A stretch of 64,000 nucleotides of DNA from Brachionus manjavacas (lineage: Eukaryota > Rotifera > Eurotatoria > Ploima > Brachionidae), in the NCBI GenBank assembly GCA_019054805.1, contig JAHQIY010000001.1:6896501-6960500 (forward strand), written 5' to 3'. The notes beneath the pieces were generated by a model that was not told the DNA's origin, did no database searches, and saw only the letters and a list, made by a program, of their open reading frames with translations. A program made the translations under genes and the position numbers. Positions 6,305 to 49,653 of the stretch are shown in pieces (the first letter of the stretch is position 1; every line of letters starts with the position of its first letter).

Positions 6305-7235
6305 AATTCCATCAAAATGCAAATGCTTTGAAGATTTATTTATTCAAAGACAATCTGATTTTAACTATTCAATAAAGTATAGAAAGAAAACCTATAAAGC
6401 AGATTCTAAATCAGTGTTAACATGTGACTTTTACAAATCTCTCAAAAGAGGTCCCAACCAAAAAATAGTCTCATACTCACTTTACGGAAGAGAAAAGCGC
6501 TACTACAACTTAATTCCAAATCTAAGTCAGATAATCAACAATTCTATCCTGATCACGTAATGCGAATCTATCACGACAATTCAATAGACAAGTCAATAAT
6601 CTGCAAATTTGAATGTGCAAATGAGCATGTTGAATTTTGTGACATTCAAAAAATTCCCAAAGATATTGAAAATAGCCAAGATGTGCTCAACTTGGACTAC
6701 ATTCATTCGATGATGTGGCGCTTCCTTCCCATAGGGGACACTTTTGTTGACCATTTTATGAGCAGAGACTTGGATTCATTGATTCTGCAACGAGAAGTTG
6801 ACTCTGTTCAAGAATGGGTGAATTCGAACACTGTTGGACACATAATGAGAGGTATTTTAAAATTAATTTAAATTAATTTAAATTGTAAAGGATTAAAAAA
6901 ATTTAAGAAAATTTTAACTATAAATATTCTAGAGATCATTCTTACCTTAAACATTTCATTCACAATTCTTACACGCTTTTACAAATTAATTTTAGTTTAT
7001 TTTTATATTTAATAATTACATTTATAAAAAAAACAATGATGAAGAAAATGAAGATGATGGAAAATTAGGTACAATATGTTCTAGATCTTTTTTAAGCAAG
7101 AGCTGGACCACTTAATTTTTTTTTGGACTATTCGGATGTTTTTGGTTTAAATCGAAATTTATCAGAAATTTTCTAAGAAAAAATAAAAATAAAAACCCAA
7201 TATACCAAAATTTAGACATTTAATACACTTTTTAT
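6305..7235 (+). repeat. arm 1 of a near-identical inverted tract within the glycosyltransferase pair
   Basis: From the codons for PSKCKCFEDLF, through the rest of exon 1 and about 380 nt of intron (as far as AATATACCAAAATTTAG), this is nearly identical to the reverse complement of 14950-15875. Outside these limits the two genes share only distant protein similarity. The identical stretch includes non-coding intron sequence, so selection on protein does not explain it. Confidence 0.8.
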
Positions 7236-7384
7236 TTTAAAAGGATCTAAGCATGCTTTCTAAGAAAGCAACATAGATGGAACTAACCCACTTTTGATTA
7301 GCTTTTTAAAACGGGGTCTTAGGGTGGCACTTATTTGCAAGGGTATACGGTAAAATTTTATTTAATCATTAAAAGAAGATTTTT

Positions 7385-7990: not shown

Positions 7991-8774
7991 TTTTTTTATA
8001 AAGAAAAAGAGCGAGTGTTATGTTTAACCTTTATAATGTAAATATCTATTCAAATAAATTTATTTTTAAATAATCTCTAAATTTTGACACCACTAACAAA
8101 GTCACTATTTGAAGGCTTCTCATTCAAATTTGATTACTTTTCACATAGTTTTTAGTGGTTTCAAATATTTTTTGGTCCCCTAAAAAATGTGAACCAACCT
8201 TTAAATTCTTTGCTCAACTTTTGTATTGATTTTCATTCTAAATCGGTTTAAACCCCAAAATTAAAGGAATTGTTGAACTTTACTCAAGAGACTAATTTAA
8301 TAATGTAATTTAAAAAAAAGAATTTTGTGAATTCACCAAATAAAATCGGTTACCCGTTAAGGATGCCTTAAATTATTTTTAATTAAATTTTTTTTAGATA
8401 ATCCTTATCATGCAACTGCTATTTTGGGAGGAATGTGGGGTCTGAAAACAAATTTGGACCGGTTAAGCTCCAACTTTATTTTCAGTCAAATCGTTGATAA
8501 AAGCCTAAGCAAAAAATTCAATCCGAACTCCAAAAGTCCTAAGGGTTTTGATCAAGTTTTTTTGGCAACAACAGTCTATGATTATATCATAAATTCATCA
8601 CTAGAACACGATAGTTATTTTTGTAATTTTTTTCCCAAAAGTAAACCTTTCCCAACAAGACGGACTGGTAATTGCTTCGTGGGATGCATTGGTAGTTGCA
8701 ATCAATCAGCTGTGTTTTATCCCTGTCCGATAGAATGCCGACCAAAGAACCACTCTAATTGGATTTATTGCTAA

Positions 8775-14472: not shown

Positions 14473-16082
14473 TTAACAAGTTTCCCAGTCTAAATGTTTT
14501 AAAGGTCGACATTGTATTGGACACTTTTTGAAATCTGCCGAGACATTACAGAACCCAGATTTACCTACAAAACAATTACCAACTCTTTTGCTTGGAAAAG
14601 GTTTGGAATTTGGATACTGATTGCACAAAAAGCTATCATGAACAGTAGCATTTATCATAATTCTTTCGTAAACATGATCTGATAAAAAATATTGATCATA
14701 ACCCTTTAAGCTCTTACGGAATGTTTTATATCTGTAACCAATTTTGACAATCAGATCAAAAATCTCTATGGCTAAATTTCTGTTCTTTGAAACTTTGAAA
14801 CCCCACATTCCACCGAGAATTGAAGTTCCATGATGAGGATTATCTAAAAAATAAAAAAACATTGTAAATTTCTTTTTTATTATAGTGTATATATTTTAAG
14901 AATTAAAAGGCACCTAATGCTTGAAAGGAAATTTAATAAAAAAATTAAAAGTCTATTAAATGTTTAAATTTTGGTATATTGGGTTTTTATTTTTATTTTT
15001 TCTTAGAAAATTTCTGATAAATTTCGATTTAAACCAAAAACGTTCGAATAGTCCAAAAAAAAATTAAGTGGTCCAGCTCTTGCTTAAAAAAGATCTAGAA
15101 CATATTGTACCTAATTTTCTATCATCTTCATTTTCTTCATCATTGTTTTTTTTATAAATGTAATTATTCAATATAAAAATAAACTAAAATTAATTTGTAA
15201 AAGCGTGTAAGAATTGTGAATGAAATGTTAATGAAAGGTAAGAATGATCTCTAGAATATTTATAGTTAAAATTTTCTTAAATTTTTTTAATCCTTAACAA
15301 TTTAAATTAATTTAAATTAATTTTCAAATACCTCTCATTATGTGTCCAACAGTGTTCGAATTCACCCATTCTTGAACAGAGTCAACTTCTCGTTGCAGAA
15401 TCAATGAATCCAAGTCTCTGCTCATAAAATGGTCAACAAAAGTGTCCCCTATGGGAAGGAAGCGCCACATCATCGAATGAATGTAGTCCAAGTTGAGCAC
15501 ATCTTGGCTATTTTCAATATCTTTGGGAATTTTTTGAATGTCACAAAATTCAACATGCTCATTTGCACATTCAAATTTGCAGATTATTGACTTGTCTATT
15601 GAATTGTCGTGATAGATTCGCATTACGTGATCAGGATAGAATTTTTTGATTATCTGACTTAGATTTGGAATTAAGTTGTAGTAGCGCTTTTCTCTTCCGT
15701 AAAGTGAGTATGAGACTATTTTTTGGTTGGGACCTCTTTTGAGAGATTTGTAAAAGTCACATGTTAACACTGATTTAGAATCTGCTTTATAGGTTTTCTT
15801 TCTATACTTTATTGAATAGTTAAAATCAGATTGTTTTTGAATAAATAAATCTTCAAAGCATTTGCATTTTGATGGAATTTTTATGTGAGAAATTTGGCTT
15901 AGAATTAAGCTTTTTGGAAGTCGAATTTTTTTCATTTGAACAATTTTGAGCCATAATTGTGATTTATTCATCTCTGTTTGTTTTAAAAATCTTTGATTTT
16001 CGTAAAAAATTGTTAAAAAAATTAAAAAAATGCTAAACCGAATTATTTTTTTATAACTTAGTTTTTTTATACCAAAAAACAT
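14473..16082 (-). CDS. glycosyltransferase-like type II membrane protein, copy B, 373 aa
   Basis: Exon 1 is 16082-15332 and exon 2 is 14843-14473, with a 488-nt intron (GTATTT...TTTTTTAG) joined in phase 1. Residues 14-28 (IRFSIFLIFLTIFYE) form a membrane anchor after a short basic lead, giving a Golgi-type topology. The lumenal part holds KIVSYSLYGREKRYY (about 121-135), MMWRFLPIGD (about 194-203), SRDLDS at 211-216 (a DxD-like metal/nucleotide-sugar motif with D213 and D215) and, across the splice, HIMRGDNPHHGTSILGGMWG. The C-terminal 60 residues carry several Cys that probably form disulphides. These landmarks belong to a family of putative glycosyltransferases known from animals, bacteria and large viruses; the sugar and acceptor are unknown. 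It is the intact partner of copy A at 6189-8774. Confidence 0.72.
14950..15875 (-). repeat. arm 2 of the near-identical inverted tract within the glycosyltransferase pair
   Basis: Reverse-complement partner of 6305-7235. Exon-1 coding sequence and most of the intron match almost base for base. Upstream (membrane anchor) and downstream (exon 2) the genes differ strongly: SRNCFVG-type C-termini share motifs but few exact runs. Confidence 0.8.
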
Positions 16083-16204
16083 CGTAAATATTTCTGATAT
16101 AATATTGAAATTTTTTAATTTAAAATTTTTTAAATCAACTTGATCTTTCTTAAATTCTTTTTTGTTTACTTTTAAAAATAAAATAAAAACTATCCAAATT
16201 TTCT

Positions 16205-16430
16205 TCGCGTTTAAGCTTTAGTTGATTAGCCTATCTTGTTTTATAATTTTTTCTTTTATGTTTTGTAGTATTGTATGTTTACAATTAAATTCGAGTACTA
16301 ATTAATTGATTCTGAATAGTTTGCATTTTTGTATTTTATAAATTGGTTTTTAAAAAATTGATCGAAAAATTAGACATGAAAACAAAATTGATTGGAATTT
16401 TTAAAAATTTTTGAAACCACATAGTTTTTG
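16205..16430 (+). repeat. inverted copy of 20815-21050
   Basis: The segment from GCGTTTAAGCTTTAGTTGAT to CCACATAG is the reverse complement of 20815-21050 with few differences. It lies upstream of the larger copied block (16765-17525), whereas in the lectin-gene intron the corresponding block lies on the other side, so the order has been changed. I see no coding capacity in it. Confidence 0.65.
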
Positions 16431-16764
16431 GTAAAATACAGTTTTAAATTATTAAGAAAGATATTTTAAAGAAAATATTTGTCAAAATTAAAATTAATTT
16501 CTACATAGTTTAATTTTTTTTGTTTGAAAAAATGCTAAAATATTGAAACATATTTTTCTTAATGAAAAATGCAAAAACTAATATCTTTAACCTTTTAAAA
16601 AGTAAAATATAAAATAACATTAATTTTTATAGTCATAATTGAAAATTTTACATATTTATAAACATTTTCAACGAGTAAATTTATATTTTAAATCAAATAG
16701 AATATCTAAGTACTACAGTGCTTTTATAAAATGTCCAGAATCGCCAAAATTACGTAATTTTATC

Positions 16765-17525
16765 AATCATTCCTACTTAAAAGATATGACAACGAAATAA
16801 TTCAGCTAATTTTTTTCTTTCTTAAATTTTTTGTCGTAATTTTTAAAAATGTTTAAATTAAAGTTTAAATATTATTTTTTTTTTATTTTTTTTTATACAA
16901 TTTATACTGTATTAGTTCAAATTTTTAATCGTTTTTTTTTTTAAAGAGTTACCTTAAAAGCAAATAAATAAATAAATTACAGTATCACATTTGTTTTAGA
17001 ATGTAACAAGGATACTGTTGGTGAGTTTAAAATTATTCTTTTGAGAAAAAGTTTAAACGTTTAAATATCTATTGTTGAGTTAAAATAACTTAAAATGTGT
17101 GTTAATGGTTGCTTAAGTGATTGAGGATTATTTTTTAAAGAAAAGTGTCAAAAACCTTTTTAAGTGACATTGGGCGATTTGGTTAAGGTATCATGTACAA
17201 TTTTGCTTTTAAACAAAAATGTACATGATAAAAATGTATTTTCCTATTTTAATGTTGGAGTATAAAATTTGTAAAATGTAACACCTAAAGACCGGATGAT
17301 TTTTTTTGTATTTCTTTTTTTCGGATTTTTTCCTCATATTTAAAATAAAGAGACATTATAACTTATCAATTATTTTTGAAAAATTTTATTTTCATGCAAC
17401 AAAAAGTTTTCTTCAAGAATAAAAAGGTATTTTTTTGACCAATCAAGCAAAATAAATTGTAAATTTTAAACATTTTATCGATTTTAAATTGATAAATATC
17501 TAATTTATTACTAAAATTTTCAATC
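16765..17525 (+). repeat. inverted copy of part of the lectin-like gene's intron (21200-22000)
   Basis: Long runs such as AATTCAGCTAATTTTTTTCT, TTAAAGAGTTACCTTAAAAG and TTTGACCAATCAAGCAAAAT recur in reverse complement at 21200-22000. The copy abuts the 3'-exon fragment at 17526, although in the donor locus about 1 kb separates these parts. The join therefore carries a deletion. Confidence 0.7.
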
Positions 17526-17838
17526 GTACAATTTCTATTCACAACCCATTTATTGTACCCTTTTGGTTTCATTAGATACCACAATTAATTACAGGACTAG
17601 TTTTGATACAACTACAGCTAGAAGAACAACTGAATTAGTCGCGGCCACAACAATTATCAGATCTTCGATTACAAGCAAAATAGATGGAACTAGTACCAAT
17701 TCAGTTGCTTCAACTTCAAGGAAAACATCAACGTCCAGTTCAGTTATTGATTATGAATATTATGATGAAAATGTTTACTGTATTTCGCGAGGCTCTGGAT
17801 TTCAAACTTCCAGGAAAAATGCATGGCTCTCCAACTGA
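17526..17838 (+). pseudogene. 3'-exon fragment of the lectin-like gene (inverted partial duplicate)
   Basis: From TACAATTTCTATTCACAA onward the frame matches the Ser/Thr-rich stalk of the minus-strand gene at 19814-23089 almost residue for residue (for example TTINYRTSFDTTTARRTTEL), with only a few substitutions. It ends SRKNAWLSN, so the hydrophobic C-terminal tail of the parent (SRKNAFLFIILILSF) is lost. No signal peptide, lectin-like domain or start codon is present, so it is a dead duplicate. Confidence 0.75.
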
Positions 17839-19813: not shown

Positions 19814-22800
19814 TTAAAATGATAAAATTAAAATAATAAATAAAAATGCATTTTTCCTGGAAGTTAGAAATCCAGAGCCTCGCGAAATACAGTAAACATT
19901 TTCATCATAATAATCATAATCAATAACTGAACTGGACGTTGTTGTTTTCCTTGAAGTTGAAGCAACTGAATTGGTACTAGTTCCATCTTTTTTGCTTGTA
20001 ATCGAAGATCTGATAATTGTTGTGGCCGCGACTAATTCAGTTGTTCTTCTAGCTGTAGTTGTATCAAAACTAGTCCTGTAATTAATTGTGGTATCTAATG
20101 AAACCAAAAGGGTACAATAAATGGATTGTGAATAGAAATTGTACAAAGATCGGTCCAAACATTGGTACTGTACCATGAGACTAATTGGCTTAGAATTTAA
20201 ATTTATTGGTAAATTAAAAGTTTCCAAGCTGAATAAATTATATTGGTCAATTAATTCTCTGGTAAAAACACATGGACTTTTGTTGATACAGTATCCACAT
20301 AATGAAGTAGTTACTTGAATATCTGAATTTGAAGTGAAGTCTGGCTGATTCAAACAATCAGGAATAGAAGCACTATTTTTAAATGATCCGGCCAAATTTG
20401 TGATCAAAATAAAATCTTGGTTGTTTGGACAAAACAGATTATAGTTGGTTAAATTGTAATCATTGTGGCAAATTGTCAATCCTTTATAAAATAGCTATTA
20501 TAGTTAATATTTAGTAAAGAATTAGAAATTAGAACTCTAAGGCTGATTTTTTTCATGTTAAAGGCTAAAATTATTTGGTAATCGACTCCAATCAATTAAT
20601 AAAGATCCAAAATTGACTAAAATTTTTAATCGATTTTATCTTTGGTAATTTGTAAAGGAATAACGCATCGTTTGAATACCAGAGAAATTTGTTACCTGGA
20701 TAATAATTATCCTAACAAAAACAAATTTTTTGCCCTTAAACATTTTGGAATTATTTTACTTAAAGTAACGTTTTTTAATGTTAGCTAACGTAATTTTACG
20801 TAAAATTAATACATACAAAAAATATGTGGTTTCAAAATTTTTAAAAATTCCAATCAATTTTGTTTTTATGTCTAATTTTTCGATTAATTTTTAAAAATCA
20901 ATTTAGAAAATACAAAAATGCAAACTATCCAGAATCAATTAATTAGTACTCAAATTTAATTGTAAACATACAATACTACAAAACATAAAAGAAAAAATTA
21001 TAAAACAAGATAGGCTAATCAACTAAAGCTTAAACGCGAAGAAAAAGAAGTACTGTTTGAATTTTAGGTCAAAGTAAGAGCTAGGGTTACAGATAGAAAA
21101 AGCTGTAAAAGAAATTTTAATAAATAAATGTTCATGTTCAAGATTGTTGACTAGATCGAAAGGCATCGTATTTTATCTAAAAACTTAAGCTAATTAAAGA
21201 ATCGATTGAAAATTTTAGTAATAAGTTAAATATTTATCAATTTAAAATCGATAAAAAGTTTAAAATTTACAATTTATTTTGCTTGATTGGTCAAAAAAAT
21301 ACCTTTTTATTCTTGAAGGAAACTTTTTGTTGCATGAAAATAAAATTTTTCAAAAATAATTGATAAGTTATAATGTCTCTTTATTTTAAAAATGAGGAAA
21401 AAATCCGAATAAAAAAATACAATAATAATCATCCGGTCTTTAGGTTTTACATTTTACAAATTTTATACTCCAACATTAAAATAGGAAATTACATTTTTAT
21501 CATGTACATTTTTGCTTTTATCATGTACATTTTTGTGTTGATACCTTAACCAAATCACCAATTGTCACTTAAAAAGGTTTTTGACACTTTTCTTTAAAAA
21601 ATAATCCTCAATCACTTAAGCAACCATTAACACACATTTTAATTTATTTTAACTCAACAATAGATATTTATAAGCTTAGGGTTTTGCTCAAAAGAATATT
21701 TTTAAACTTACCAACAGTATCCTTGTTACATTCTATAGTAAACAAAAGTGATACTGTAATTTATTTATTTATTTGCTTTTAAGGTAACTCTTTAAAAAAA
21801 AAACGATTAAAAATTTGAACTAATACAGTATAAATTGTATAAAAAAAAAATTAAAAAAAAAATAATATTTAAACTTCAATTTAAACATCTTTAAAAATTA
21901 CGACAAAAAATTTAAGAAAGAAAAAAATTAGCTGAATTATTTGGTTGTCATATCTTTTTAGTAGGAATGATTGCTCATAATGTGGTTCCGTAATTTTTAA
22001 TATTGTAGGCGTATGGTATGATGAAATTTTATTGAAATTAAACAAAATTAAGCTCCCTTTATACCTAAACAAGTTTATTAAAGGATAGTTTATTAAAGGA
22101 TAGTGAGTAGTTTTATTAAAGGTCGGAAATTAAAAGTGAAATATCAAGATGTTTACTCAAAAAAACGAAAAAATAATTAAATTCTCTAGATTTAATAAAA
22201 TCTACTTTTTCTTGCAGATTTGCTTTTCATCTCATATTCTATGCAATCGAATATAAACACTTCAGAATATGTGATCTTCAAAATTATTTGAATAAATTCA
22301 ACTTTGACATTTCAAAAAAAAATACATTAAAATGGATATTTGACTAAATTTAATAGAAGTTGTCTACTTTTTTTGAATACAACATAAAATTATTTACCTG
22401 GAATTGGCTCGACCAAATTGACGATGAAAAATAAAAATTGAATAAAAAATTTTATTTTTTTTTTATTATAAATCATTTTTTCATTATAAAATTTTGCAAT
22501 TAGCGGTTTCTTAAGATTACAAGTGTTATCTAATGCTATAATTTCTTTTTTAAAATTTGAAATTTAAATTAAGCTTTAAAATAAATAAAAAAAATTGTTG
22601 GAAAAATTAGGTAAAATTTAAATTCATATTTATTCGAGTTGTTTTCCAAAAATTCGAGACCTAAAAAGATAAATTTTTTAGAGCCCACCATTTTTTAAAA
22701 CTCTTACCTAAGCAATCGTAAATGAATAAAAGTCGAATCGGTATCTGATAAATGTTAGGAGGCACTGTATAAGGCTGAAATAAGCTTGTCACATATCCTT

Positions 22801-29090: not shown

Positions 29091-30950
29091 TCACTTGTGT
29101 AATTTTGAATTGTTTTTTTGCAAATTTTCCATTTCAAGTACTTGCTGAAAAGTTCTAGGCGGATTTAATTTTGAAATTTTAATACCATTCAAATGACCAC
29201 ATTCATCAATTGCTAGCAAGGCCTTAATAAAAAAGTTAAAAAAAAAATTAAATAAAATAGTCTTACCCTATCAAGCATTTCACGAGTATGAGCGGCTGAT
29301 AAACAAAATCTAACTCTACCTCCAGCAAGAGGTGTTGCTGGAAAACCAACCGTAACTACAGCAATTCTTCGTTCTAGCATTAATCTATTAAAAAAAGCAA
29401 CTTTTGGGGGCATGTACAACATGGCTGGCACAATTGGTGAACCAGAGTTTCCATACACAACAAAACCCATTTTTTTCAGCTTGTCCCTGAAGTATCGCGT
29501 ATTTTCTGCCAACTGTTTAATTCTTCTTTGTCCTTCTTTGGTTCCATCTAAACCCATTATAATCTCAAGTGTTTTCTTGGTCTGCATGCACACCGGAGCG
29601 CTCATACTCGATGCGTAGCAATGTGAATGAGATGAATTTTTCAAAAGGTTTATTAGGTTTTGTGATCCTGCTACATAGCCTCCTGCGGCACCGAAACTCT
29701 TCGAAAATGTTCCCATCAAAACATCTACATCTTTTGGATCACATCCGAAATGCTCGACTACGCCACGGCCAGTCGGACCCACTGCGCCAATACTGTGCGC
29801 TTCATCCAAATACAAATAGGCCTTGTACTTTTTCTTCAAAGCGATAATTTCTGGCAATGGTGTAATTGTCCCCTCCATGCTTTATTTTTAATTTTTATTT
29901 ATTTAAAAAATTTAATAAAGACATTTTTTTCTATTTAATTATTTTACCTGTACACTCCTTCGACAATTATTAATATTTTTTTCCATGGACGGCGAGTCAA
30001 TGGATGTCCCTCAATAATTGCCTTTTTCAGCTTTGATTCCAAATCTTGGACATTGTTGTGTTTAAAAACTCGAATTGTTGCACCGGAAAGTCTTGCGCCC
30101 AAAATCAAACTAACATGGTTCAGTTCATCACTCAAAATCAAACAATCTTTTTCAATTACCACAGGAATACTTAAGGCATTAGTTGCAAAACCCATTCCAG
30201 TTACTAAAGCCGCTTCAACCCCAATAAATCTAGCCAACAATTCTTCCAATTCCAAATGACATCTCAAAGTTCCCAATTCTTGCCTTGAACTACAGCTTGA
30301 AACTCCGAAATCTTCTATGCTTTTTATGGCGCACCTTGAACTCGGACCATTGTTTTCAGCAAAGCCCAAATAATTATAAGATCCCATATTCAATGCCTTT
30401 ATTTTTTTACCAGTATAATAAAAAGTCCAATTGTAGTCATCACTTTTTCTCTCAACTAATTCGATCTCGGCTCCGGGCACACTACATATTGGTCGATTGA
30501 AGCAGTCTCTATTCCGTACATACACATTTCGGGTATGAAAACTTTCATAGCTATTAAATAATGGAACAAAATCTTCTGTGTTATTATCCACTGCGCCTTT
30601 TCTTTTCTCCAAACCCCACTTTCTCATAAATTCCCGAATGTGACCAAATATTTCCAATATAGTGTAGCAAAGGTGAGTATAAAATACTTGTAATTTGGAC
30701 GTTTCTTCATACAGTTCGTGTTGAATGCTTCTCTTTTTTACTGTCTAAAAATTTTTTTTTTAAATTTTGTCTCTTCTGAATCAGTAAAAATTACATTTTT
30801 ATACTTTAGACTACTATTTGACAAATTGCGGGAATGGTTTCTTTTGTGAAAGATAGTGGTCTGTTTTTCTGAATTTGACAGGCCGTTTGGAAGTCTTATA
30901 CTTTCTGTTCCCTGATCTTCATTGCTTGCCAGCAACTTATCATAAGTCAT
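29091..30950 (-). CDS. SPTLC2: serine palmitoyltransferase long-chain-base subunit 2, copy 1, 565 aa
   Basis: Four exons, 30950-30795, 30744-29948, 29879-29267 and 29222-29091, join in frame with introns of 44-68 nt. The product is the catalytic subunit of serine palmitoyltransferase, a PLP enzyme of the alpha-oxoamine synthase family. It condenses serine with palmitoyl-CoA to 3-ketodihydrosphingosine on the ER membrane, together with SPTLC1. Visible features are a membrane-associated segment ([15 protein letters not shown]), [68 protein letters not shown] and the PLP-lysine motif [16 protein letters not shown] with K378. Length matches human SPTLC2 (562). The N-terminal 80 residues are poorly conserved. 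The core is nearly identical to copy 2 (35932-37977), including the second intron. Copy 1 has an intron after HTREMLDR that copy 2 lacks. Confidence 0.92.
29440..30500 (-). repeat. inverted near-identical tract shared with SPTLC2 copy 2 (36320-37365)
   Basis: The reverse complement of about 30130-29440, from the codons of [11 protein letters not shown] across the intron to KKMGF, is essentially identical to 36683-37360. The 68-nt intron differs only by one A in a homopolymer. A second block (about 30500-30200) is also highly similar. Between them about 70 bp are strongly diverged: [20 protein letters not shown] against [20 protein letters not shown]. Confidence 0.85.
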
Positions 30951-33900
30951 TTTATCTAAAAAAATGCGAATAAATTTAATAGCTAGTTATTTATCGTTTT
31001 GAGAACAACATTTCCACTATTTTAAATAACGTCTAATCATTATCTATTACCAACATTGTTATTGACCTTAACTACATTCGGATTTTTGTAAATATGAAGC
31101 CTATTTTCTAACATTCAGTTAAAATAATTCATTTTTTAAAAATAATTTTTATGAATCGATATTCTCGAATATTGATAATCCTGTGTTTTAAATTTTTACT
31201 GTAATTAACTCTTACTAATGTAAGGAAAATTTTTTAAATTTTAATTATGATTTTTTAAAATATAGCTTGAATTGAATTAGTAACAACAAATTTTTTCTTG
31301 AATTGGATTTTTTATTTTCATTGTATAACCTTATGCCTTATTTTTAAACAAATCAAACTTTTAAATTAAAAGTTTTAGCAAATTAAAAATAAATTCATGA
31401 TTATTATTTTGTCAAAAATTATCAAAAAAGTAATTCTGAATTTATTAGCAAAGATTCAGTCGAAAACATTTTGATTGTAACTCATGAATCTAAAAAGAAA
31501 GATAAGAAGAAATTATTTATGTAATCATTAAAAAATAAATTGATTATATTTAATTCAAATTTTGAATAAAATTATTAATTTTCTTTTTAAAAGGTAAAAT
31601 GTATAGAAATATACGTTCCATAACAACGTCAATCAAAAATAAATAAATCAACTTGAAGCTAGAGTTAAAACTATGAGCAAATTTAAATCACTTCGAAAAA
31701 AATCTTTCAAAACAAAAAGTTGTTTGTTTTTTTTTAATACATAAGGATTTTCTTTTAATTAGAATCAAAAAGAACATTATGATATTAAAACTTAAAGTTT
31801 TAATTAACTAAAAATATTTTAAGACATATTTCAAGATAGTGGATCACATTTTTTATGAAAATAAGTAGCATAATCCAGTCAAAGAATTTTAGACTAATAC
31901 ACATTTAAAAATTATGTAAATGGTTTAGTTCTGGATTCAAAAAAAATGCACTTTTAAAATCTTTAAATTTGTTTAATAAAATAAGTATTTAAATAAGATA
32001 TTTTGAAGACTAAGTTGGAAAATTTTTATTTAATAATAGCTTGATAAGATAAAAGGTCTTTTGTAATTCGAATTTTGGAAAGTTTTTAATAGAAATGGTA
32101 AGCAAAATAGCCATCTGATTTTGATTTTTTAATTAAATTTATTTATGAAATTTATATTATTTCAAATTTAGATCGATCAAAATTTTAAATAAATTGATAA
32201 AATTAAACCAAAAAGATACTTAAAAAATTAAATACAGTGATACTAAGAATATTTTTATGTTTTTTTTTTTTATAATGTAATTAGATTAAATTAAAATTCG
32301 GAATTTATGTTTTAAGAATGCTATCATATAGATTTATTCAAAATAATCATGAGACCCTTAAAAACAAAAGTTGCTAAATGCGTGAACTGATTTATTTAAT
32401 TTCAGATTACCTTAGATAGTCTTAAAAGTACTTTTTAGTAGAATAAAAATACAGTAAGAAAAAAGGTTATAAACAGCTTTCAAGTATTTAAGTAGTTTCT
32501 GATAAAATAAATTATTCATTTGAACCATTTTGTTTTTTAATACGAAATTTGAAAAAAAAGTCGCCTCCAACATTCCATTCAGTGATTAAATTTAAAATTT
32601 TTGAAAATAAAAATTAACTTGAAATATCAATTATTCCTAAATTTCAGGTCTCATAAGTATATTAAAAAAATCGAGTTGGAGATGATTCAACAAGATATAA
32701 ATTTTTAAATTTTAAGGCATCTCAGTTTTATTGACTAAACGTTTCTTCAAACAAATCAAAAAATTATTTAACCAACAAATAAAACAAAATTTATTAAGTT
32801 TTATTATAAAGAATTTGGTTGCCTAGTTATTTTTTATGCATTTACTAAAATGTTTCAAATTAAATATTTTTCTTTCATCCATGTTTGCTACATTCAAAAT
32901 TAATAATCAATTTTTTTTGGTTTTAGTTTTAGTTATATAGAAAATTTTCTTTTTTTTTCCTCTGAAACAATCTAATAAAATTAAAATTTCTTCTTTTTCG
33001 AAACAAACAAACACTTAATTTAATGATTTTAAATTTTAACAAATAAGTAAATTTTCTAAAAAATGAGCTTTTAAAATTTTAAAATGTTTTTACTAAAAAT
33101 AGTACTTAAAATGCCTATGATTTTCACTTAAATAAAATCAAAAAGGAAAAAAAATTTTTTAAGAAAAAAATTCTTCATATTAGACTTATAGTTCTAACTC
33201 TGATTTTTTTTAGTTTTTATCAAAAATATTTGAATAAACTAATAAAAAAAAGAGCTAATATGTTTTTTGTTTTTAATTCTAAGGCTCAAAATTTAAGTTT
33301 TGACTAGTATCAAAATTTCTAATGATTCTTAAATGCTAATTTTTTTTTAAATAATTTAATAATTCTTTCTTGTTTACCGTTAATTATTATAATTAGTATT
33401 TAATTTTTTTTAAAAAATATAATTAGTATGTAATTTTTTTAATCTAATTTTTCCTGTTTTTCTTGTAATTCATTATTCATAATTAATAATAAACAATGTT
33501 GAAATTTTTTCAAAATTCTAATTAATCTAATTTTTTTTTCCTATCTTATATAAACTAAAAGTATTTATATTTATATTTTGATTAAAAAATGATAAAATCA
33601 TATTTGTGATTTAAATAAGATATGGTTTTTTAAATTTACCAAATTAAATTCTATTAATAAACTTAATGAAATAAAATAAATCTATAAACAATCAGCTTTG
33701 TTTATAAAAGCGAAAATATTCACTGAAAGTATTTTTTGTAATTTTTAGCGTTTTATAGCCAAGTTATCCAAAATGTTCCAATTTTAAAGGTAAAAAGTTT
33801 AATAAAAAAAAATAATTCACCTTAATACACAATTTTGAAAGGAAGCATTTGTTTTAATTTTAATTTAACGAAACCATCAAAACTGCGCTATTTCTTCAAA

Positions 33901-35931
33901 ACAAAAAAAACCTGGCACAATTTATAAAACATTGGCACAAAAATTAAATTAACAGAATACTTCAAAGCACAGTCTCAAAGCGTTATTAGAGTAGCGTTGT
34001 CTAGAAAAATGTTATAATTCTAAATTTTAATTGAAACAAAATCATGCATTTTATTACATGTTATTTTATTTACATCATTTTTATTCTAATATTCCATTTT
34101 GTCAATAATTGTTTTTAATTAACATACTTCAAAGACTCGTAGATTCAAAATCCTTTCAATAAATAGAAAACAGTATAGAGAGTCTAATGAAGAAATCAGA
34201 ATGTTCGACCCAAGGTTGTGTTGTGTTTAAACAACTCACAACAGTGACAGAGGTGTTTAAACATTGCGCAAATTACCTCTGCTTTTACCAATGCATGACT
34301 TTCTATGTTCTTTGGCTAATTAGGAAAATGGCCAAAAGACAAAAATAATTTTAATTATTAATCATTGTGATTTTTTTATTAAATAATTTAAAAAGAAAAA
34401 TTTGTTCATTTTACAGTTTCGTAAGATTAACTGTAATTTCAAAATTTTTATGTTAGCTGATCAATTTTTACATTCTTAAACTAAACTAGCTTGTATAAGT
34501 TAATTGAAACACTACTCTGATATTTTCTAAATAATTGAGTAATTGAATATTTTCAAATAAACTATTTTATTGACAAAAGATTTCTTTAAATTTAGATAAA
34601 TACTTAAAAAGCTTGGGATTTTTGAAAATTATTTAAAATTTTTATCATCCTTTTTCTTTCTGTAATCGATCCGATTATTTCAAATATCAATTCTTACCTT
34701 GTTCTAATGAAAAATTCGCTTGATTTGTTTAACTTTTGAGGTTAGCTTTCGAAAAAATAGCCTTCTGTTCAGAAATTATCTACAAAATAAAAAGTTATTT
34801 ACCTTTAGATTCAAAAACTGGATATTGTTTGATTTTAAATTCATAATATAAAAAATAATAAATCTAGGTTTTAAAGTTCAGCAGATATTTGAAAAAAAAT
34901 TTAAAACCGAGTTAATTAAAATTATGCGACTTAGAAAGCATGATTAAATTACACTAAATGTTGGAAATAGAAATGAAATCATTTTTTTGCTCAGCAACTA
35001 TCACCTTTATAAAAAAGAATTCATGATAATTTTTTAAAATCGATAAAAAACTAAGATAAATAAAATTATTGAAAAATAGTTAGATTTAATATTATCATTT
35101 TCAAAAAGCTAAGACCCCATCTTTTCTTTATTATGATAATTTAATACCGTTAAGTATTTTTCTAGTCTTGCTCAGGGGTGCAATCATTTATCCAGCATAA
35201 TTATAAAATTTATTACTCTTTTCACAATCGGACCATTTTTTCGTTTGCAAGTCGAATCATTAAAACTTAGTTGCTTTTACACAAAGTAAAATGACTCAGA
35301 TAATTTTAATTTAAAAATATTTTTTTTTCTAATCCCAACAATAAATTCAGTTCCGTAAATAATGCAAGTCTGTTTTGTAACTATTCTGTATCTTTTTATC
35401 AAATATTTGTTATTTTTCAAATTCAAAGACAAATGAAAAAATTAAAATTTGAAAATCTATTCTTAGCTACGTAAAACAAATTTCTTTAAATCGCATTATT
35501 TTTATAATTTCATTAATTCAGAATAAATTAAAGAACAACTTTTGCATTTTTGTCATTTTAAATCACACTTACTAAGAGAATTAAAATTTAAAAATAAAAA
35601 AAAATCAGAATTTTCTAAATTTATTAAGGTTCTTTTTAAATAAGCACTAGATTCCGATTACTCAATTTTTATTTTTAAATTAGCGTCAATTTATGTTTGG
35701 TATAAGATTTTAACGAGAATAAAAAAAATAAATTTTAACCTTAAAGGCTTAAAATATTTTTAAAACAAAAATCACGTGATTATTTTTGAGTTTATTTTTG
35801 ACAAAACAAATTTGTTTAATTTCACATTTTGATCATAAATATTAAAGTTTAAATTTATTTTAGTAGAAAAAAATCGAACGATTTTGGGTTTTGCTATTTT
35901 TTATAGAAAAAAAAAATAATAATTACTCAAA
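30951..35931. other. 5-kb A/T-rich spacer between the divergent SPTLC2 genes
   Basis: It contains the two divergent promoters. I see no open frame above background. The one less biased patch, 34190-34330, contains an imperfect palindrome (GTTGTGTTGTGTTTAAACAA CTCACAAC) and a short hairpin AGAGGT...ACCTCT. These might be regulatory, but nothing ties them to a known factor. No transposon end was recognised. Confidence 0.5.
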
Positions 35932-37977
35932 ATGACAATACAGACAAACTCTCGAGTTCAAAAAAGCAATGAAAATTTGGCCCAGTCTTTAAATGACTTT
36001 AGTTTGCATGCACCTATTCCTCAAAATTCGCAAAAACAGCGATCTCACAATCGATGTAGATCTCATGGAACAATTAATACCGTAAAACGAAGCATAAAAT
36101 TGGAGAAACCCGATTTGGAAGAAACCCCATTTTTGCAAGCATTTCTTACCTATTTAAGCTACACCGTACTTCACATTTTTGCTCATTTTAGAGAGCTACT
36201 TCGTAGGCTTAAATTTGATAGAAGAAAAGGCGCTTTGGATAACAATCCATCTGACTTTGTTCCATTGTATCAAAACTTTGATGGCTTTTTTACCAGAAAT
36301 TACTATCTTAGAGTAAGAGACGTATTTAATAGACCAATATGTAGTGTGCCTGGAGCCGAAATCGAATTAGTTGAGAGAAAAAGTGACGACTACAATTGGA
36401 CCTATTATTACACTGGTGAAAAAATAAAGGTATTGAATATGGGATCTTATAATTATTTGGGCTTTGCTGAAAACAATGGTCCGAGTTCAAGGTGCGCCAT
36501 AAAAAGCATAGAAAATTTCGGAGTTTCAAGCTGTAGTTCAAGGCAAGAATTGGGAACTTTGAGATGTCATTTGGAATTGGAAGAATTGTTGGCTAGATTT
36601 ATTGGGGTTGAAGCAGTTTTGACTTTTGGCATGGGATATTCGACCAATGTTACAAATATACCAACGCTTGTGGGCAAAAATTGTTTGATTTTGAGTGATG
36701 AACTGAACCATGTTAGTTTGATTTTGGGCGCAAGACTTTCCGGTGCAACAATTCGAGTTTTTAAACACAACAATGTCCAAGATTTGGAATCAAAGCTGAA
36801 AAAGGCAATTATTGAGGGACATCCATTGACTCGCCGTCCATGGAAAAAAATATTAATAATTGTCGAAGGAGTGTACAGGTAAAATAATTAAATAGAAAAA
36901 ATGTCTTTATTAAATTTTTTAAATAAATAAAAATTAAAAATAAAGCATGGAGGGGACAATTACACCATTGCCAGAAATTATCGCTTTGAAGAAAAAGTAC
37001 AAGGCCTATTTGTATTTGGATGAAGCGCACAGTATTGGCGCAGTGGGTCCGACTGGCCGTGGCGTAGTCGAGCATTTCGGATGTGATCCAAAAGATGTAG
37101 ATGTTTTGATGGGAACATTTTCGAAGAGTTTCGGTGCCGCAGGAGGCTATGTAGCAGGATCACAAAACCTAATAAACCTTTTGAAAAATTCATCTCATTC
37201 ACATTGCTACGCATCGAGTATGAGCGCTCCGGTGTGCATGCAGACCAAGAAAACACTTGAGATTATAATGGGTTTAGATGGAACCAAAGAAGGACAAAGA
37301 AGAATTAAACAGTTGGCAGAAAATACGCGATACTTCAGGGACAAGCTGAAAAAAATGGGTTTTATTGTCTACGGTAACTCAACTTCACCAGTAGTTCCTA
37401 CGTTGTGTTATCTTCCTTCCAAAGTTGTGTAAGTAATATTAAAATACAACAGTGGTTTGATCAAAGGTTTGTTGGTAAATATAAGAAAAATATCGACTAA
37501 TTAAATGAAAATTTGTTTAAGATTCCGAGTTCTTAATAACTAAATTTTCGAAAATTTGAATCTTTATAAAGATTTGCAATTTTTTTAGAATTCTACATTT
37601 TTCATTTAATGATAAATTCACGCAATGTATTGTCAGATATACTTTTGAACTCTATCAATTTTACACAAAATTCGGCAAAAATCTTAGATCAATTTACTGT
37701 TAAATTTTAAATTTTTTTCTATTCCTTTTTTTTAAGTGGCTTTAACCGCCTAATGCTTGAGAAAGGGATTGCTGTTGTTACCGTCGGCTACCCCGCCACA
37801 CCTTTGGTTGGGAGTAGAGTTAGATTTTGTTTATCTGCTGCTTATAGTAAAGAAATGCTTGATAAAGTTTTGCAAGCAATCTGTGAATGTGGTGACCAGA
37901 TGGGCCTAAAATTTTCGAAAAAAAACCCACACATAAAATTTTTGAAACAAAAGGAAATGGATTCTAAGCGCTTTTAG
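35932..37977 (+). CDS. SPTLC2: serine palmitoyltransferase long-chain-base subunit 2, copy 2, 556 aa
   Basis: Exons 35932-36878, 36946-37428 and 37737-37977 join in frame, with introns of 67 and 308 nt. Same enzyme as copy 1, with the complete catalytic set: [49 protein letters not shown] and [16 protein letters not shown] with PLP-lysine K376. A membrane segment ([16 protein letters not shown]) lies near residue 75. The N-terminus ([20 protein letters not shown]) and C-terminus differ clearly from copy 1. The intron after LPSKVV is absent from copy 1, and copy 1's intron after EMLDR is absent here. Both copies look functional. They may be specialised by tissue or acyl-CoA preference, but that is inference. 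Confidence 0.92.
36320..37365 (+). repeat. inverted near-identical tract shared with SPTLC2 copy 1 (29440-30500)
   Basis: Partner of the tract described in copy 1. The strongest identity runs from about 36683 through the intron 36879-36945 to about 37360, where the copies diverge again ([17 protein letters not shown] here, [17 protein letters not shown] in copy 1). Confidence 0.85.
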
Positions 37978-44165: not shown

Positions 44166-45233
44166 TTATTTATGGGCATAATGTCTGACATAATCAATCA
44201 CATACTTTTGTGGGAATATGTTTTCATCAATACCAAGAGCACCTCCCCAAAAACCTCCGACAGCAGTGTTTAAAATGATATTAAATTCATTATCAAAAGG
44301 CCAGTTGTTGTAGTTGCTATTCGCAGGTCTGTCATATCGGAAATAAATCTGTCCATCAACATATCCTCTAATGCTTGTTTCTGACCAATAAAGCTGATAC
44401 AAATGAAATTGATTGCTAACATCATTTACTTTTGTTGATTTGCCTATTTGTGTTCCTATAATGTGGTTAAAATCTTTACAATGAATTGTAGCATGAACAA
44501 TATTTTGCTCATATCCAACATGTTCCATTATATCGATCTCTCCATCATTTGGCCAATTCAATGGTCTTCCAGCAGACAATAACCAGAAAGCCGGCCATGT
44601 TCCTCTACCATATGGAAGTTGAGCTTTCATTTCATAAACACCATATCGAAATTTTTTTGTACTCATAAGTCTCGCAGATGTGAACTTCATGTTGTTCTTC
44701 CATTCTTTTCTTGTGTGTATTGTCAACATTCCATTACTGATTTCAGTATTTTCATTGTTATTTGTATAGTATTGTAGTTCATTGTTTCCCCATCCATGTC
44801 CACCTGTCTCTTGGTTCCAATTTGACATAAAGCTTGACAATGAATCAAACTCATCTGACCACAAAAGTTGACCTTTGAGACTATCGATCCCTGAACTTAC
44901 ATTTAAGTTTTCATCTAAAACTCCACATACCATAGTCATGTCGCCAGTTGAAAATGCGTCATTTTTTGACACCGAACCTTTCTTCATCCAGCAAGTTCCT
45001 CCATTATATGTGGTCCATGTAAAATGGCTACAACCTAATGTTTGAGAGCACTTATTACTACACTCTTCTCCACGAACTGTGGCTGATGTAAGGTCATTGT
45101 TTGTAAAGTCGCAGCCATGAGCCCAATTTCCATTCCATTGGATTCCATTTTGAGCTGCAACTAACCCTAAAAATATTATCTGAAACGCTAAATAAAACAT
45201 TTTTTTAAATTTAATTTCAATCAAAGATTTCAA
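44166..45233 (-). CDS. secreted GH16 beta-glucanase with N-terminal PAN/apple-like domain
   Basis: A single uninterrupted exon. The ATG at 45233 gives 355 residues, but the ATG at 45200 puts the signal peptide (MFYLAFQIIFLGLVAAQ) at the very N-terminus and is the more likely start (344 aa). Residues 36-104 (numbering from 45233) hold a PAN/apple-like domain with six Cys (GCDFTNNDL...CGV). The GH16 domain follows: LLWSDEFDS, GGHGWGNNELQYYT, and the catalytic ExDxxE in NDGEIDIMEHVG with nucleophile E232, D234 and acid/base E237. Substrate-side aromatic residues (RGTWPAFWLL) are present. Such enzymes hydrolyse beta-1,3-glucans such as laminarin, which fits an animal that eats algae or fungi. The lack of introns contrasts with neighbouring genes. 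Confidence 0.9.
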   Translation of the reverse strand: MKSLIEIKFKKMFYLAFQIIFLGLVAAQNGIQWNGNWAHGCDFTNNDLTSATVRGEECSNKCSQTLGCSHFTWTTYNGGTCWMKKGSVSKNDAFSTGDMTMVCGVLDENLNVSSGIDSLKGQLLWSDEFDSLSSFMSNWNQETGGHGWGNNELQYYTNNNENTEISNGMLTIHTRKEWKNNMKFTSARLMSTKKFRYGVYEMKAQLPYGRGTWPAFWLLSAGRPLNWPNDGEIDIMEHVGYEQNIVHATIHCKDFNHIIGTQIGKSTKVNDVSNQFHLYQLYWSETSIRGYVDGQIYFRYDRPANSNYNNWPFDNEFNIILNTAVGGFWGGALGIDENIFPQKYVIDYVRHYAHK

Positions 45234-45841
45234 ATGATCTTATAATATTTTTTTCTGGAATTAACTGAAATTTGATCATCAAGGGCTAGAAGTACAGTAT
45301 TCAAGTTTCATTTGAAGGTTAAAACACATTTTAGAAAAAATCAATATTATCTAAGTATTATTTTAAATTAAATTTTAATTCCAATTGAAACTGTTCAACA
45401 AAAATACGATTGTTGAAGAGTGGTGTCTGAATTATTTTATTTATAATTTTTTTTTATAATTATTTACAAAAGGATTTTTTAGTATCAAAAAGTATCACTT
45501 TCTTTCAAATTCTAATAAAAAAATTGAAAGCAGATATTTATGTTACAAAAACAAAACCAAAACTTAAAATATAAATTAAAATTTATTCTATCTTAGAAGT
45601 AAATAACAAATCCTGTTATTCCATCAATCTGATTTTCGAGTTTGAAATTATGCGGCCATATTTAATCAGCTTTTGCTCACTCATTTTAAAGTCACTTAAA
45701 ATGTGACCTCATTTCAGAAGGATTCCTTTGTTACCTAAAATGTGATCAACTATTCACTTAATGCAATAAATCCAGATTATCCTTATTTATAAAGTTGGAT
45801 GATTTGCATTATCTATCAGATTATATGCACATTATAAAGTT
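45234..45841. other. A/T-rich spacer upstream of the GH16 gene
   Basis: Promoter side of the glucanase. No additional gene seen. Confidence 0.45.
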
Positions 45842-46105: not shown

Positions 46106-47349
46106 CCCAGTGACATGCATTAACGAAAAAAAAACGAAATTTTTCGAAAAAAGCACAATTTTTCGAAAAGCTTCGAATTCTCTTCGAAAATGTTCTTATT
46201 TGTCTCGAAGAATAATTTTTTTTTTTAATGATTAAAAAAAAGAGTGAACAAAAGAGTGAACAAAATTTACAATACAAATAAAAATTTTGTTTTTAATCAG
46301 TTAGTTTAGTTTTTAATTTTTATTATTATTATTTTTATTTTTATTATTATTTTTAAATATTTTTAACTTTTTAAGATTATTTTTTTAAATTATTACTTAT
46401 TAAACTTTTTATTATTTATTTTTAATTTATATTTTATAAAATCATATAAAATAAGAGAGTTGTCTTAGAGTCCCAGATTTGTAGTCAAAGTATTTAAAAT
46501 TAAAATTTAATATATTTGTAAAATTTTTAATTTTTTCTTTCATTGACCCAACATTTTCGAATACTATTATAGTTTTATTGTTAAAAATATTTGCTTTATC
46601 TGTGACGTGTTTATAAGCCTTTCCAGATTAAAATAGTAAATAATTATTACACATCTGCTTTTAAAGACTGAATGCAAAAAAAAAATAAAAATGACAATTG
46701 AATTTTTATTTAGCAAATTAAAACAATCTTTTTGTTTAAAAAAATCTTTTGATTTTTCTATCCCAAAAAAAGAGTCATCAGTTATTTCAAAAATTCCGCT
46801 TTTTAGAAAAACATCTGTTATTTAAAATTAAGGATAATTGACTTGATTCTTTGAACAGTTTGAATTATCATACTTATGCTATTTATGATTATGATAATTA
46901 TGCTAAATAATTATCGAAAAAACAAAGGTCATGAACTCGACAGTCCTTGTTTGATTTAAACTCTTATTTACGATTGAGTAAAAAATGATTTTAGTTTATG
47001 ATTTAAAATTAAATTAGATAGTTTTCTAATCATCTAAGTCAGTCAGTCATACATTTTTGAAAAATATATTAAATTAAAAAAATTTTTTTTACACTTAGAC
47101 TTTTATAAACAAAGAAGTGTTTAGCAAGGTGATCCAACTAGATTAATTAAAAAACCAAACGATTTTTACCAATCGAGTTTGACGTGTGAATTCAATACAT
47201 AAACAAAAATCAACCTTTGATGTGAATTTCCCATTTAAGGTTAGTTTTTTATCAAAAAAAATAAATATTTTTTTAAAAGCTTTATTTATAATCTAGTAAT
47301 TTATAAATTTAAATCCTAAATTTTTTTATTATTATCTGAATTTTTAAAC

Positions 47350-49653
47350 ATGAAAAAATTTAGGAGAAACTATTTATCAATTGATTCAAAGCAAGAAATT
47401 CCGCGTTCTTCTAAATATTTATTTTCCGAGAACCCTTATCAGTCTCAAGTAATTTCTTCTAAAAGGTTTCCTCCTATAAATGAAAAGGTAAAACACGGTA
47501 AAATAGATTACCAATTATCCTATCTAGATAATGATGTTTTATTAGATCACTCAACATCAAATAAAGATGAGAATATTGATGAACCACATTTAAAACAAAT
47601 TTCTGAAAAAATCTCTAATCCTAATGAAACAATAAATATATGCGAGGAAATTTTTAAATTATACATGAAAAATAACATGACAAAATCTTCAATAGAAGAT
47701 TGTATCATTCTTATTAAAAAACTTGTCCCTGATTTAAAAATTCCTACTTCTATTGATAAAATAATAGATATTTTGGCAAATGATGAAAAATCAAAAATAA
47801 ATTATAGAAAATTTGAATTTTGCAATGGCTGCAACAAAAATTTTAAAACAAGTATAAAATTTCTAAATAAGTGTAGTGAATGTGGGAAATGTTTATCAAA
47901 ATTCTATCATCTTAATATATTAGGACAAATACGGCAAATTCTGGATTCAAAGCCTATCTTTTCAGATTTTAAAGATTCAACAATTTATGAAAAAGTTAAA
48001 TCAAAGGAAAATACTAGATTCTTTACTTTTACTTTGAACACAGATGGAATTAGTCCATACAAATCCTCTAAAACCAGCATTTGGCCAATCTATTTTGTTA
48101 TAAATGAATTGAGTTTAAAAAATAGATTTAATTTTGCAAATATTATTCTTGGTGGTTTATGGGTCGGGCCTAATAAGCCTGCATTTCCCATTTTTATTGA
48201 ACCAATTTTAAACGAGCTCAAAAGTTTAGAGCTCGGTGAGATAATGAAAGTTAATGAAAAACTAGAATTAGTCAAGTTTTTTCTTTTATTTACTGTCCTA
48301 GACAAACCAGCAAGAGCAAGTCTGCTAAATATGAAGCAGTTTAATGGTTTTTTTGGTTGTACAAAATGCTACCAACCCGGTGAGTCGTTACGTACTCAAA
48401 AAAATGGTTCAATTCATATTTACCCATTTAAATTATATAATTCAGAAGGTCCTCTTAGAAGTCGGTAAAAATATCAAAAAGATTTATCTAATTGTTTAGC
48501 AACAGGAAAAGAAGTAAGAGGAGTTAAAGGCATTTCTGCTTTAACTGGATTAAAATATTTTTATCCAATTGAAGGTACTATGATAGACTACATGCATTCA
48601 ATTTTAGAGGGAGTAGTCCGCAAATTAACAGAATATTGGTTTGATGAAAAATTTCGAAATGAAAAGTTTTCTCTCAGACCTCACCTACTAAATATAAATA
48701 AGAAAATGCTAGAAATAAGAGTGCCTCAGTTTATTCCTAGAGTTCCACGTGAAATTATTCATATCAAATATTGGAAAGCAAACGAATATCTTGCATTTGT
48801 TTTATACTACGCTCTACCTATATTTAGGGGCATCATGCAACAAGACCAACTTAACCATTTGATTAACTTAATTATCATCTTAGAAAATTTATTAAGAAAA
48901 CAAATAGATAAAAAATATCTTCCTTCAATTCAAATTTTAATCAAAGACTTTAATAAAGATATGTCTTTTTTTTATGGTCCAAATTCCATGCTTTCAGGTG
49001 TACATGAGCTTATTCATATTGTTAGTGATATTAGAAATATAGGTAACTTAAATGAATTTTGTTGTTTCCAGTATGAAAATTTTAATAGGATACTCATTCA
49101 AAATTGTAAAGGTAAGAGTTCTGTTGGAATCGAAATAATTAATTCATTTAATTCAATAAAATTGTATTATAAAATAAAAAATGACGAAATCATTCATCAA
49201 GATATACAAAGTAAGGATTTCTATTTAAAAATGAAGGTTAATAATAATAATATGATATCTTCTTATGAACATAATCAGATCTGTGACTTAGTATCAAGAA
49301 ATCATTACAACTTATTTAAAATTTACAAAAGAAATAATATTTTTTTTACATCTCTATTTAACAAGCAGACACTGAGAGGTGATTATTGTATAAAATTCAA
49401 AAAAAAATTTGGTTTTATCAAATATTTTATTTCAGATTCTAAATCAGTTTATGCAGTATGCTTCCTTATTACTAAACTTCAAAACTTATTTTTTAATCCA
49501 AAGTTTCCAAATTTAAAGTCATCAATCCATATTTGTGTCAAAACAGATTCAATTTTTTTTGCCCCAGTTTCAGAGCTAGAGAAATGTGTATATATTAATG
49601 CAAATAACACAATTTATATATCAGATTTTAGCGTCTCTCATCTGTTTAGCTGA
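47350..49653 (+). pseudogene. EnSpm/CACTA-like transposase with a single in-frame stop
   Basis: 768 codons stay in one frame from the ATG at 47350 to TGA at 49651-49653, interrupted only by TAA at 48466-48468 (codon 373). The N-terminal third is helical. A Cys pair motif lies at residues 158-178 (FCNGCNKNF...KCSECGK). The transposase core starts at about residue 228 with LNTDGISPYKSSKTSIWPIY (D232 a likely catalytic acid), then NIILGGLWVGPNKPAFPIF and FNGFFGCTKCYQPGES. After the stop come GVKGISALTGLKYFYPIEGT, MIDYMHSILEGVVRKLTEYW and GVHELIHIVSDIRN. These are landmarks of the animal EnSpm/Tnp2-type transposase family. The protein would cut and reinsert the element. The rest of the frame is undamaged, so inactivation is recent. 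Confidence 0.78.

Follow-up and report, generated by a model that had tools for sequence, protein, structure and literature searches.

Two divergent SPTLC2 genes in the window

The stretch of DNA analysed here (64,000 nucleotides, hereafter the window) lies on contig 1 of a genome assembly of 114 Mb in 61 contigs. As the original prediction had it, two full SPTLC2 genes are found here in inverted order about 5 kb apart, and both could be modelled with intact reading frames. Gene A, on the minus strand (30950-29091), encodes a SPTLC2-type subunit of 565 aa in the coding exons 30950-30795, 30744-29948, 29879-29267 and 29222-29091, with a presumed N-terminal splice; PF00155 was recognised in two of its exon frames. 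Gene B, on the plus strand (35932-37977), encodes a SPTLC2-type subunit of 556 aa in the coding exons 35932-36878, 36946-37428 and 37737-37977. The two genes are divergent, lying head to head with 4981 bases from start codon to start codon.

When B was used as query against solved structures, the best relative was human SPTLC2 (E 1.2e-202), followed by the yeast (5.1e-149) and Arabidopsis (9e-146) proteins, with the best other match at 2.3e-68. B is thus closest to SPTLC2/Lcb2, before SPTLC1, ALAS, AONS, and KBL, and A aligns with B and with two further SPTLC2 genes, C and D, across the whole core. C and D form a direct tandem pair on contig 3 (4483862-4491208) and bring the SPTLC2 genes found to four in all; the model of C starts at the open frame, its first exon not having been found. 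The PLP lysine motif TF(S/T)KS, whose role is taken from the available part of a study of a bacterial enzyme (PMC10196870), and the PLP-stacking His are present in all four genes, spaced identically (24 and 116 residues). A and B are therefore both predicted to be catalytic PLP subunits of serine palmitoyltransferase.

Superfamily members were also found on contigs 7, 15, and 20. Judging from their motifs, we take these to be ALAS-, SPTLC1-, and GCAT-like, with one presumed SPTLC1-like gene, on contig 15. In vertebrates, SPTLC2 and SPTLC3 are duplicate catalytic subunits of serine palmitoyltransferase, a situation that A and B resemble, and the duplication that gave rise to A and B is taken to be separate from the vertebrate one.

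Identity between A and B is patchy along the genes

The identity profile across both loci recovered two blocks, a graded shoulder, a short island and diverged ends, with three levels of divergence: that of the blocks, that of the shoulder, and that shared by the ends and the island. The main block, block 2, covers 36680-37363 in B (plus strand, 684 bp) and 30146-29462 in A (minus strand), without a single substitution and with one indel. It consists of two uninterrupted identical stretches, 216 and 468 columns long, parted by a single extra A in a homopolymer run of A's intron i3 (29880-29947, minus strand, 68 nt; 36879-36945, plus strand, 67 nt in B). A near-identical block of about 670 bp that includes an intron differing by one homopolymer base had been described beforehand; the block stands, and its positions, which deviated by 3-22 bases, are replaced by those given here. 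The intron within the block is free of substitutions, unlike the heavily diverged ends of the two genes.

Upstream, block 1 (36432-36614 in B, plus strand, 183 bp; 30394-30212 in A, minus strand) differs at 1/183 positions, in agreement with the very similar second block reported earlier, and is preceded by the shoulder (36348-36431 in B, plus strand; 30395-30478 in A, minus strand), in which 8/84 positions differ (9.5%). The strongly diverged island between the blocks, formerly estimated at about 70 bp, measures exactly 65 bp (36615-36679 in B, plus strand; 30211-30147 in A, minus strand) and carries 30 differences; its loop reads GMGY in B and GMGF in A. The transition between levels is sharp at 37363 and on both sides of the island, and gradual at the 5' end.

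In the parts not covered by the blocks, the protein of A is roughly as distant from that of B as either is from one of the two further SPTLC2 proteins. Protein identity between A and B is 43/76 on the N side (B residues 62-137), 60/88 on the C side and 10/23 in the island, and that between A and C outside the blocks is 50/76 and 66/88; at the protein level, the ends of A resemble those of B no more than those of C. In DNA, A and B share 145/228 positions on the N side and 186/264 on the C side, vs. 151/228 and 182/264 for A and C, so that the two comparisons come out almost level. Codons for the same amino acid differ in the two ends at 20/43 and 27/57 between A and B, and at 27/50 and 36/61 between A and C. 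The original view of an old duplication, with diverged N- and C-termini and some introns not shared, is borne out by these end identities and by introns i4 and i5, which differ between the two genes.

The length of the identical stretches was evaluated over residues 62-540 of B, with introns left out. The longest identical coding run between A and B, 617 nt, was reached in 0/2000 shuffles of the differences, and the same was true of a run of 199 identical same-amino-acid codons (0/2000). The five remaining pairs among the four genes gave runs of 12-26 nt; the run of 26 nt belongs to C and D, the direct pair of contig 3, and was reached in 19/2000 shuffles.

Silent sites point to recent interlocus gene conversion

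None of the four-fold sites differs between A and B in block 2 (0/80) or block 1 (0/17), that is, 0/97 in the blocks together. By comparison, 2/8 differ in the shoulder, 5/5 in the island, 4/9 on the N side and 18/31 on the C side (22/40 in the two ends). In block 2, 35/54 four-fold sites differ between A/B and C, and such sites are therefore free to vary. Silent sites and the intron are thus identical in blocks bounded by old divergence, which is the pattern of an old pair recently homogenised in its core. Interlocus gene conversion between A and B is well supported by these comparisons, although the mechanism itself we infer. Pooling the 97 four-fold sites with the 67 bases of the intron gives 0/~164 differences at nearly neutral positions, from which simple arithmetic places the upper 95% limit of divergence since the last event near 1.8%. 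Polishing or assembly may have affected the last few differences between A and B; nevertheless, in our judgement, they could not turn identity of about 70% into 684 bp of identical sequence.

A recent inverted duplication followed by rapid change of the ends and the island would also leave a highly identical core. However, it would have to account for the heavy silent-site divergence of ends and island and for the differences in introns i4 and i5, and when the two halves of the spacer between A and B were compared, nothing beyond short A+T-rich matches was shared. This scenario, which we regard as scarcely credible, was rejected on the silent-site divergence outside the blocks.

A and B are very probably old inverted paralogues whose core was homogenised by conversion, with the ends and the 65-bp island escaping. 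Ectopic conversion, favoured by the closeness of the two genes, would have copied the catalytic core (the 183- and 684-bp blocks in B) from one gene to the other, the last event being so recent that silent sites in the blocks are all still unchanged. Three parts would have escaped and kept their original divergence: the N-terminal region, the C-terminal exons, and the island with its PLP-phosphate loop. The shoulder is probably what remains of an older, longer tract, and its graded divergence (8/84) would then imply at least two events. A single event for both blocks is also compatible with the data, since 1/183 and 0/684 are within chance of each other. The conversion proposed originally is accordingly retained, specified as recent and probably repeated, and the choice it offered between two tracts and selection as the cause of the island is left undecided.

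The diverged island and the cofactor loop

In the alignment, the island corresponds to residues 231-253 of human SPTLC2. In all four SPTLC2 genes, the SDELNH His comes 24 residues after the F/Y of the GMG(F/Y) loop. In the bacterial enzyme, according to the available part of the study, the PLP phosphate is anchored in part by the main chain of Phe114, and the PLP ring is stacked by His138, at the same spacing (PMC10196870). Mapped by this spacing, the island F/Y would be the PLP-phosphate anchor matching Phe114, and it is kept in both copies, as F in A and as Y in B. A departs at five positions, 235 (T), N245S, L249V, V250I, and G251E, at which B, C, D, and human are alike (or all F/Y), and B departs at F239Y and A240S, where A, C, D, and human are alike. 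Over the 16 sites at which human and D agree, derived changes number 6 in A, 4 in B, and 2 in C, and are therefore too few to show acceleration.

The codons for shared amino acids in the island also differ between A and B, at 7/9. Thus, the island represents retained old divergence rather than new change, and its synonymous differences argue against fast change of the island after a recent duplication. Retained old divergence is predicted alike by selection, by a mismatch barrier to conversion, and by the chance position of tract ends.

An island without selective cause appears the probable reading: two tracts may happen to flank it, a single heteroduplex may have undergone patchy repair, or the 46% mismatch may block strand exchange. 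The divergence of 30/65 is about that of the unconverted ends (identity 145/228 and 186/264), blocks 1 and 2 (1/183 and 0/684) fit one or two events, and substitutions in diverged stretches that end conversion have been proposed for the GOT1Sd/GOT1Sr introns of Tigriopus in the part of that report available (PMC3728101). Against it stand the shortness of the 65-bp gap between near-zero blocks and its position on a functional loop, neither of which counts as a test.

Alternatively, and more tentatively, the island could be kept by selection, A and B being isozymes that differ near the cofactor and at both ends, with conversions covering the island removed. The putative phosphate anchor within it, the five departures of A from positions conserved in B, C, D, and human, and the intact frames of both genes speak for this possibility; on the other hand, the derived changes do not amount to acceleration, and the synonymous divergence of the island matches that found elsewhere, as it would in any unconverted stretch. 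In the peak-of-divergence model attributed to Teshima and Innan, selection reportedly keeps a narrow peak of divergence inside converted DNA, and the island has that shape (30/65 between 1/183 and 0/684).

As two further SPTLC2 genes are present, a third paralogue could also have supplied the island of A by conversion. Nevertheless, its codons are only 43/69 identical to those of C and 39/69 to those of D. A genome search with 91 bases across A's island returned the self-match only, which makes a close third donor unlikely, although the known copy in B was missed as well. With no other close copy detected by a search that overlooked B too, a third donor, very unlikely in our estimation, was dropped.

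Comparison with known systems

The locus is a clean case of a known process, not a new process. In Caenorhabditis, nearby divergent or convergent paralogues are often highly alike within a species, and conversion has been proposed for them in the part of the study available (PMC1803023); A and B, close and inverted, resemble these pairs. In the examples accessible there, genes and intergenic arms are alike around spacers of 126 and 414 bp (PMC1803023), whereas A and B are alike in the core alone and have 5 kb between their start codons. Tracts in Caenorhabditis reach into introns, and conversion occurs in either orientation, according to the portion of a second study at hand (PMC3966223).

Islands of divergence amid converted stretches also occur in GOT1 of Tigriopus californicus, where, as far as the accessible text goes, selection was considered but not shown (PMC3728101). 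Those genes are likewise enzyme paralogues, compared there in several populations, whereas A and B come from one genome. In the human opsins, a peak of divergence lies inside converted DNA, as in A and B, and a review, in its available part, names selection as the cause (PMC3924837). For the opsins, the peak is linked to two residues that tune colour, with macaque as comparison, whereas for the island in A and B a functional difference is hypothetical. Among the matches listed in a literature search, judged partly by title, no paper on conversion between SPTLC2 genes was found. The locus appears to be a new, clean example of conversion with an island of divergence: an old pair of enzyme genes homogenised in its core, with the ends and one short active-site patch still different. 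Together with related genomes, A and B would provide a direct test of whether such patches are selected functional differences or leftovers of tract ends, and of whether conversion moves introns between paralogues.

Donor direction and intron history

The GC content of third codon positions (GC3) is 100/262 in the blocks, vs. 45/187 in the unconverted parts of A (p 0.002) and 58/187 in those of B (p 0.13). No GC3 contrast between the block region and the rest was seen in C (p 0.63) or D (p 0.34). These values lean weakly towards B as the last donor. The lean is weak because C, itself unconverted, has a similar contrast in four-fold GC (38/104 inside the block region vs. 17/84 outside), and because GC-biased conversion would explain the hint as well.

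Intron i3 is found in A and B and is lacking in C and D; i4 is present in B, C, and D and missing from A alone; i5 is common to A and C and lacking in B and D; and A has a presumed additional N-terminal intron. Outside the blocks (188 columns), the best tree of A, B, and C groups A with C (bootstrap 78), with p-AU values of 0.283 for (A,B) and 0.045 for (B,C). If the best tree holds, A groups with a gene without i3, and i3 may therefore have moved with the core; the pattern would be explained equally by a loss of i3 from C. FastTree gave (A,B) on the N side alone and (A,C) on the C side alone, and silent codons in the ends lean to A-B, with fewer differences for that pair (47/100) than for A and C (63/111). 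Given these disagreements and the p-AU of 0.283 for (A,B), the transfer of i3 is not settled. The joint proposal that selection holds the cofactor-loop island apart under frequent conversion and that conversion also moved i3 between the paralogues, A perhaps having received core and intron from B, seems improbable.

Protein change in A and B was also compared between regions, each having 37/124 in the unconverted parts vs. 22/170 in the blocks (p 0.0006). The same trend is seen in C (25/124 vs. 23/170, p 0.15), from which A and B do not differ significantly (p 0.33); faster change of A and B in the unconverted parts was therefore dropped.

Other inverted pairs and repeats around the locus

A second inverted pair (6305-7238 vs. 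14941-15879) is 98.2% identical over 939 columns, and its presumed last exons (8361-8771 vs. 14476-14895) share 65/134 amino acids. It seems to follow the same design as A and B, with a near-identical block and a diverged presumed last exon. Seven other places found in the genome match it at 68-80%, and none of the frames tried matched a Pfam family at E 0.01. In the left copy, the block appears to contain a shift of the reading frame. In a third inverted pair (16199-17824 vs. 19846-21973), blocks of 93.5-98.3% identity occur in rearranged order; the best match found outside the window is 81% over a short stretch, and no Pfam family was found for the frames 17515-17838 and 19814-20494.

Repeats were counted as aligned pieces, not as independent pairs, with a length of 150 bp or more, at least 90% identity and less than 20 kb between them. 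The window holds 5 such pieces, all inverted, and the 224 kb that include it hold 5 direct and 6 inverted pieces. Outside the window there are thus 5 direct and 1 inverted, and a general bias to inverted pairs was rejected. C and D, direct and unconverted, provide a single contrast to the inverted A and B.

Among the direct repeats, one to the right of the window on contig 1 (121085-121699 and 125558-126172 in window numbering) extends over 615 bp at 100% identity, its copies lying 3.9 kb apart. A frame for a GH16 glycosyl hydrolase with a PAN domain was detected at 44166-45239, and direct repeats of this region lie at 72226-73780 and 91429-92398 (window numbering). Two adjoining open frames were found at 47320-49653, the first matching Transposase_21 and DUF1258 and the second without a Pfam match; together they probably represent a relative of DNA transposons. 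The window also carries genes of animal type, with GILT, saposin A, and MGA domains.
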